Part shown: positions 6,495 to 10,016 of the stretch, piece by piece
Position numbering within the stretch: position 1 is the stretch's first letter
Layout of the letters: each line of letters opens with the position of its first letter
DNA from: an uncultured Lentisphaeraceae bacterium
GTDB taxonomy: Bacteria > Verrucomicrobiota > Kiritimatiellia > RFP12 > DVOR01
Length of the DNA: 10,016 bases
Direction of reading: 5' to 3'
NCBI GenBank assembly: GCA_946056345.1
Contig: CAMGJH010000015.1
Location: forward strand, 1 to 10,016
Translations under genes and position numbers: made by a program
The notes under the pieces: generated by a model
Told to the model about the DNA's origin: nothing
The model's database searches: none
The model's input: the letters and a program-made list of their open reading frames with translations, nothing else

Positions 6495-6522
6495 AGGCTG
6501 CTGCAAGGCGCGCACGCCCCAG

Positions 6523-6742
6523 GTCCAAAGTCAACCCGGGCCTACCTCGAGGTCAACCCGGCCCGGGTCCGAGGTCAACCCGGGGCGGGTCCGAGGTCAA
6601 CCCGGGGCGGATAAAAATGTAAAACGCCCGGGGTCCAAAACGAACCCGGCCCGAGTCCGAGGTCAACCCGGGCCTACCTCGAGGTCAACCCGGGGCGGAT
6701 GCGAAAAGAACCCGGGGCGAGTCCGATGATTAACCCTGAGGG
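6523..6742 (+). repeat. Ten-unit tandem array of a degenerate 22-bp repeat with AACCCGG core
   Basis: Ten consecutive 22-bp units start at 6523, 6545, 6567, 6589, 6611, 6633, 6655, 6677, 6699 and 6721. Eight carry the heptamer AACCCGG at unit positions 11-17. The fifth reads AAAACGC and the tenth AACCCTG there. The units starting at 6567 and 6589 are identical. The left part of the unit comes in a few forms: GTCCGAGGTC, CCTCGAGGTC, GTCCAAAACG and ATGCGAAAAG. The right part is mainly GGCGG, GCCTA or CCCGG. A unit ending in GCCTA is always followed by one starting CCTCGAG, which makes a palindromic junction ACCTCGAGGT. The period is not a multiple of three and no conserved frame runs through it, so the array is non-coding. 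It lies between the terminator of the glycogen-binding-domain gene and the FHA operon promoter. A matching array is at the right edge of the window. Confidence 0.85.
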
Positions 6743-9826: not shown

Positions 9827-9871
9827 CTCTTTTCGGCGAAAAGGGCTCTGCCGGGCTCGCTGAGCCGTAGA

Positions 9872-9899
9872 GTCGACAGTGAACAGTCGACAGTCGACA
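9872..9899 (+). repeat. Four tandem copies of the heptamer GTCGACA
   Basis: Four contiguous 7-bp units read GTCGACA, GTGAACA, GTCGACA, GTCGACA; only the second differs, at two bases. The tract lies about 45 bp upstream of the fusA promoter in gene-free DNA. Heptanucleotide tandem repeats of this sort are known from cyanobacteria and other bacteria; their role is mostly unsettled. Confidence 0.75.
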
Positions 9900-9940
9900 G
9901 GGCGCGTACCGCGACGGAGAGGCTGGAGGCGGAACTGTGC

Positions 9941-10016
9941 GGGCCCCGGCCCTTTTTCGCATCCGCCCCGGGTTCGACTCGAGGTAGGCCCGGGTTGCCC
10001 CTCGACCCGGGGCGGG
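9941..10016 (-). repeat. Second array of the 22-bp AACCCGG repeat, inverted, cut by window edge
   Basis: Read on the minus strand, three full 22-bp units start at 10006, 9984 and 9962, after the 10-bp tail of another. The first two carry AACCCGG at unit positions 11-17, and the third has GGGCCGG. The order of unit types (ending GCCTA, then starting CCTCGAG and ending GGCGG, then starting ATGCGAAAA) is the same as in the units at 6655, 6677 and 6699. The array is in opposite orientation to the first one and ends about 115 bp upstream of the fusA -35 box. Confidence 0.8.

Follow-up and report, generated by a model that had tools for sequence, protein, structure and literature searches.

The window analyzed here, a stretch of 10,016 nucleotides, contains a real periodic array at positions 6523–6742, which we consider somewhat more probably than otherwise to be a copy of an interspersed mosaic repeat that is lineage-restricted, non-autonomous and for the most part non-coding. 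The family is multicopy, dispersed, modular and mostly intergenic, keeps a near-constant pitch, is patchily distributed and includes two in-frame copies. We infer active mobility, a trans-acting helper, recognition based on structure and a recombination step.

The array in the window

Identity at a lag of 22 bases across 6523–6742 is 0.641, compared with a maximum of 0.435 at any lag from 8 to 69 in 2000 mononucleotide shuffles, and TRF reports rows of period 22, 44 and 66 within 6522–6726. The 22-bp periodicity described in the first-pass annotation is therefore confirmed. Of its ten units, eight carry the core AACCCGG, in register on the + strand, with starts at 6533, 6555, 6577, 6599, 6643, 6665, 6687 and 6709. 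The unit at 6621–6642, reading AAAACGCCCGGGG, keeps the register and lacks the core, and the final AACCC (AACCCTGAGGG, 6732–6742, +) begins at 6732, one base off register; it is similar to the cores found in one AT-rich 22-bp family and in the arrays of a second genome of the genus (G009).

Read along the + strand, the unit order is B A C D E A B C C. A degenerate leader segment, CCCAGGTCCAAAGTC (6511–6532, +), which by sequence is similar to the terminal part of an E unit, is followed by B (AACCCGGGCCTACCTCGAGGTC, 6533–6554), A (AACCCGGCCCGGGTCCGAGGTC, 6555–6576), C (AACCCGGGGCGGGTCCGAGGTC, 6577–6598), D (AACCCGGGGCGGATAAAAATGT, 6599–6620) and the in-register, coreless E (AAAACGCCCGGGGTCCAAAACG, 6621–6642), and then by A (AACCCGGCCCGAGTCCGAGGTC, 6643–6664), B in identical form (6665–6686), C (AACCCGGGGCGGATGCGAAAAG, 6687–6708) and a C variant with four mismatches (AACCCGGGGCGAGTCCGATGAT, 6709–6730). 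The annotated interval, 6523–6742, does not include another array of this family, which lies on the − strand at the right edge of the window (9953–10016). It consists of A-like, B and C units and is truncated by the contig end. Outside these two arrays the window contains neither AACCCGG nor its complement.

The first array lies between two genes identified by Pfam, both on the − strand: an FHA domain gene (PF00498, 5863–6366) that turns its 5' end towards the array and an AMPK1_CBM gene (PF16561, 6905–7399) that turns its 3' end towards it. Heptamer repeats of the AGTCGAC, GTGAACG and GCTAACC types are also present, at 9871–9900 of the window and at many other loci, and in the sample of the source genome described below TRF reports period 7 in 44 intergenic rows.

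A modular family dispersed through the genome

The source genome (G000; 1.45 Mb in 293 contigs, 77.6% complete) contains 115 exact AACCCGG-N15-AACCCGG pairs (52 + 63), with none for a reversed-pattern control and none in the 58 further genomes searched (16 from the genus, 42 from the order). The organism is probably a member of Kiritimatiellae: the homologues of one gene that come with a named source organism comprise five from Kiritimatiellae/Kiritimatiellia and one from Lentisphaerae. The annotation had reserved the verdict of local slippage for a genome with no other copies, or with copies that had lost the period; copies with the period kept occur genome-wide. A search with a 20-base B core, which may omit records of the source genome itself, returned one match, on a Nocardia contig, that we take as chance, and none in viral contigs.

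The family was examined in 82 stretches of G000 totaling 495,022 bases (60 around listed matches, 20 without a listed exact match, one with a Y1_Tnp match and the window), a choice based on listed matches, so that array densities in this sample are not unbiased. They hold 71 clusters of at least two units. Unit A is AACCCG[GC]CCCGGGTCGAGGGTC, unit B is AACCCGGGCCTACCTCGAGG plus two variable bases, unit C is AACCCGGGGCGGATGCGAAAA, unit D is AACCCGGGGCGGA[CT]AAAAATGT and unit E is AAAGCGGCCCGGGGTCCAAAACG-like. Modules usually follow the order A, then one to four copies of B, then C, or D and E-like sequence; longer arrays are chained cassettes, and a minority depart from the usual order. B copies are near identical, and the outer cassette ends, CCGCCCCGGGT...ACCCGGGGCGG, are imperfect inverted repeats as judged by eye. 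Same-strand neighboring cores less than 100 bp apart are spaced by exactly 22 bp in 123 of 145 cases and by 22, 44 or 66 bp in 137 of 145. The annotation's rule that GCCTA always precedes CCTCGAG is obeyed in the array itself (2/2) and is a common association rather than a rule in the genome sample, where it applies to 66 of 77 AACCCGG[GC]CCTA units.

One ordered cassette is seen on dozens of contigs with mostly different flanks. A product of local slippage, or a neutral satellite, that lacks any means of dispersal would account for the tandem structure and the near-identical B copies, but slippage alone cannot disperse a cassette, and we find this reading scarcely credible; as a purely local event, slippage is ruled out by the 115 exact pairs together with the recurring ordered cassettes. 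The recurrence bears out the earlier suggestion that multi-unit segments are copied, and spread by copying or recombination, also raised there, is likely. On the mosaic-repeat model, multi-unit cassettes would spread in their usual order, mainly into intergenic gaps and occasionally in frame into the linker of a gene, and unequal recombination within an array would alter the number of B units with the register kept.

Arrays lie within 250 bp of 28 of 110 contig ends (55 whole contigs examined), which suggests why the G000 assembly is fragmented. At five loci (L079, L101, L120, L133 and L139) the array follows a long flank that is alike among the loci and finishes at roughly CGCCTATCGAAAAAGC, indicating repeated blocks larger than the array itself. 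Of the 42 stretches that were looked at first, 8 contain a CCGTCGCGG repeat.

Placement relative to genes

By gene models that are codon-score predictions and not annotation, 68 of the 71 arrays in the 495-kb G000 sample lie outside predicted genes and three overlap one. In G000, arrays occur in 7 of 13 gaps between divergent genes, 11 of 257 between tandem genes and 1 of 17 between convergent genes; the corresponding counts for G009 are 3 of 15, 11 of 225 and 2 of 19. Gene ends facing arrays in G000 are 5' ends in 63 of 90 cases versus 70 of 140 in control gaps of at least 100 bp (Fisher p = 0.004); in G009 the counts are 24 of 39 versus 62 of 116 (p = 0.46, not significant). Array strand shows no preferred orientation relative to the gene, with 35 same and 31 opposite on 5' sides and 13 same and 16 opposite on 3' sides, these strand counts being drawn from a slightly different array list than the 63 of 90.

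The 5' lean in G000 counts against a parasite that is merely tolerated downstream of genes. It favors a different explanation, a helically phased functional binding array, in which a putative DNA-binding or nucleoid protein would recognize dyads spaced every 22 bp, either upstream of genes or as landmarks on the chromosome, selection keeping the pitch while the cores drift. The absence of an orientation preference argues against such an array, as may the comparison of syntenic loci that the annotation had proposed. Among 51 reciprocal orthologue pairs of G000 and G009, 39 have both upstream sides visible, and both orthologues have upstream arrays in 2 of 39, which is not beyond chance at low power (p = 0.22); downstream arrays are found in both in 0 of 40. 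That arrays are not shared at orthologous loci beyond chance would, within that low power, favor the mosaic repeat.

Arrays inside genes

Two unrelated proteins contain in-frame three-unit arrays (L115 and L091) that encode similar peptides, PGSTSTRAGFASDPGRV in the first and PGSGSTRAGSEVNPGRV in the second; a third array (L099) is found where an open frame finishes, next to the end of its contig. Homologues of the first protein carry PF05157, and the distant homologues of the second are YfhO-like. For the second protein, the linkers at all 12 of the congener loci compared differ from that of G000, with 17–20 residues against 25 (counted by eye). Among its homologues, P0012 (97%) has the same linker, P0014 and P0015 have linkers of 17 residues, and in P0013 (90%) the site is taken up by a longer piece of unrelated sequence; relative to P0002, P0013 has some 44 extra residues of unrelated sequence where the G000 linker is the array-coded peptide. 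The nearest homologues of the first protein, P0004 and P0005, share its linker, and P0006 and P0007 (91%), shorter by six residues, are similar to part of it (RAG-AS-G-VGP in P0006), which makes the first in-frame case ambiguous. None of the 16 congeners yields a match to P0001.

None of the genic linkers compared offered a clean empty site, and since these linkers are hypervariable, gain of an array is indistinguishable from replacement of a linker. The genic copies fit array gain at a permissive site, not clean insertion. The ambiguity of one of the two cases slightly lowers our confidence in the mosaic repeat and slightly raises that in a binding array, although two copies within reading frames are themselves a point against binding. 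Rickettsia palindromic elements are short palindromic repeats found in frame inside unrelated genes; the present family differs in being mainly intergenic and tandem, with only the three arrays of 71 overlapping predicted genes.

One pitch, several sequences

The 22-bp step is not confined to the AACCCGG family. Non-redundant intergenic TRF rows of period 22 in G000 number 43, and the 42 with a 22-letter consensus fall into five clusters: two of the GC family (27 arrays), two AT-rich (14 arrays) and one single array. The AT-rich units, such as AATAAGNNNNNNNCTTATT and ATTAACCCTAAGGGATAATTCA, are spaced by 22 bp in 41 of 41 neighboring pairs less than 60 bp apart; one AT-like array (L118, 3000–3066) has a TRF period of 23, contrary to the rule. 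Their inner nine bases occur in 23 kinds that form 2.74 of 4 possible pairs against 1.99 ± 0.18 when reshuffled (0 of 5000 reach the observed value), figures that come from a repeat of the test in which units were selected by the outer frame only, an initial set having been picked by symmetry. A search for both AT patterns found neither in the 16 congeners.

Self-complementarity of the whole unit is 0.73 (p = 0.033) and 0.82 (p = 0.023) in the two AT clusters. The idea that all 22-bp families are wholly palindromic does not hold for the GC family (0.55, p = 0.58 against shuffles), nor do two smaller clusters bear it out (0.45, p = 0.99 and 0.55, p = 0.20); the GC value is a point against the mosaic repeat. 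At L087, L090, L103, L105 and L118, palindromic 22-bp arrays of the AT-rich kind lie directly beside GC arrays within one gap, an arrangement resembling nested or alternative internal modules.

The same step recurs in a third sequence family. Sites of the form CCCTNAGGG-N13-CCCTNAGGG number 176 in G009, 17 in G015 and 11 in G000, with none in the other 14 of the 17 genomes of the genus, and in a 344-kb sample of G009 the spacing is 22 bp in 35 of 36 neighboring pairs. TRF rows from 714 kb of the 16 congeners include 12 of period 22, five each of periods 19 and 20 and one of period 23. A looser joint pattern (AACCC, CGAGG, AACCC) has 98 sites in G000, 81 in G009 and two in G015, and one site each in 3 of the 158 remaining genomes of the order. 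G015 has a further 22-bp array with a different core, CGAAAGTCGGGAGGGTTTTGGG (L195, 10390–10450). Arrays are thus found in 3 of 17 genomes of the genus. In a tree from three proteins, whose alignment has gaps, G009 is joined by G003 and G006 with support of 0.998, and a group supported at 0.973 unites G000 with G012 and others but leaves out G015. The array-bearing lineages are not grouped in this tree, and their distribution is therefore patchy.

A pitch that is common to unrelated families and to another species makes the constraint on spacing suggested in the annotation plausible. The near-constant pitch in three families, together with AT cores that vary in sequence and remain self-complementary, speaks for a binding array. 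On the other side are the E units that hold the register without the core, the 14 of 17 genus genomes that have neither core pair and the AT-like array of period 23. The annotation's own version, with all cores on one face of the helix, is hard to square with the arithmetic: for a helix of 10.5 bp per turn, each 22-bp unit is rotated by about 34 degrees relative to the one before, so that ten cores would leave one face unless the DNA were underwound to 11 bp per turn. Taken together, we regard a functional binding array as a serious possibility, if not a likely one.

Folding and candidate mobilizers

Arrays with at least three core matches were compared with dinucleotide shuffles. The mean fold z-score is −2.45 for 62 arrays in G000 (36 below −2) and −3.89 for 24 arrays in G009 (23 below −2); 59 control gaps average −0.88, with 16 of them below −2. 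These scores would suit a transcribed, structured RNA element such as a terminator or an mRNA-stability element. Such an element is poorly compatible with the lack of a preferred orientation and with a lean towards 5' rather than 3' gene ends, the window has no Rfam match, and 24 single-B elements of the GC family show no two-sided change in 15 pairs of the consensus structure. The helices of this family are invariant, so covariation is uninformative and neither supports nor refutes the structure. On balance we think an RNA element very unlikely.

Hairpin-prone DNA and inverted-looking cassette ends suggest that structure or dyad symmetry is recognized by a helper in trans, and under the mosaic-repeat model an enzyme of this kind would act on the folded or dyad form. 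No transposase or other helper was found; the sole Y1_Tnp match in G000 (PF01797, 20.4 bits against a cut-off of 23) is weak and lies on an array-free contig. This Y1_Tnp-like frame, the interspersed, mostly extragenic and hairpin-prone character of the arrays, their cassette ends and a GTAG on the other strand of unit B are what a REP/REPIN family moved by a RAYT, a Y1 tyrosine transposase, might leave. Against that reading, the contig bearing the frame (C131) yielded no array and has a 44-bp repeat of its own, the array-bearing genomes G009 and G015 (both incomplete) have no PF01797 match, G016 has two such matches and neither core pair, and GTAG is, by eye, limited to B units. A RAYT family is accordingly improbable, and as a common mobilizer a RAYT is unsupported, because the PF01797 pattern does not track the arrays in these incomplete genomes. 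The 44-bp tandem repeat behind the Y1_Tnp-like frame (L119, 3274–3432) is by eye unlike the AACCCGG family.

Relation to known interspersed repeats

The annotation had called the array unlike any nameable repeat class, which was too strong, since STAR, BOX and BIME elements are of the same kind. By analogy, the array may work as these elements do; we claim membership in none of them. According to the parts of the literature cited here, STAR elements of staphylococci are intergenic direct repeats of a motif and spacers that expand and contract, are plentiful in certain species but missing from others regardless of phylogeny, occupy unshared loci and disperse by an unknown mechanism (PMC3532100). 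The present arrays are likewise patchy among related species with loci unshared (the 2 of 39 above, at low power). They differ in their 22-bp pitch, STAR spacers at the gapR locus being 40–44 bp, and in the A-B-C/D-E module order, which the cited part of that account does not describe for STAR (PMC3532100). A STAR consensus, allowed up to two mismatches, has five matches in the window against 5.27 expected, none inside either array.

BOX elements of pneumococcus, as described in the cited sections, have end modules and a variable internal tandem module with predicted stem-loops, cluster with other repeats and in some copies disrupt genes (PMC3049150). The likeness, drawn by description, lies in end modules around a variable central tandem module, here one to four B units; the difference is that the pneumococcal repeats are there reported to be favored downstream of genes, whereas our arrays lean upstream (PMC3049150). 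REP, BIME and REPIN sequences are, in the portions of the sources used, short, high-copy, extragenic and hairpin-forming, with species-specific differences and some evenly spaced tandem arrays (PMC3116915, PMC3733652). The present arrays share the high copy number, mostly extragenic position and hairpin propensity. Unlike REP, BIME and REPIN sequences, they have no cognate RAYT across the array-bearing genomes, which are incomplete, and they run in direct 22-bp tandem order rather than as inverted doublets. Of the GTAG/CGTC tag of REP and REPIN sequences, GTAG is seen by eye in unit B, read on the other strand, and in no other unit. In Haloquadratum, a 22-bp direct repeat is, on the account cited in part, two copies at the ends of an element and no array (PMC3119063). 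Literature searches returned no paper or title on such a repeat in Kiritimatiell*, which does not prove its absence in print.

Implications of a shared pitch

The unusual and unexplained part of these findings is a single 22-bp pitch common to unrelated families and species. Sequence is the usual basis on which interspersed repeats of bacteria are defined; in the present case the letters differ and the 22-bp step is common to three sequence families. Two of these belong to a single genome, and the third is found chiefly in another species of the genus. We can envision, as a tentative and rather doubtful extension, that the pitch itself is what selection or a copying machine keeps: a factor would read spacing and two-fold symmetry and not letters, and unrelated ladders (AACCCGG, CCCTNAGGG and the AT-rich ATAAG..CTTAT) would arise repeatedly as species-specific dialects. 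More generally, the 22-bp pitch may reflect a copying mechanism or a spacing-reading protein, and its occurrence within one genus makes it testable whether a copying enzyme imposes the unit length or a protein reads the spacing.
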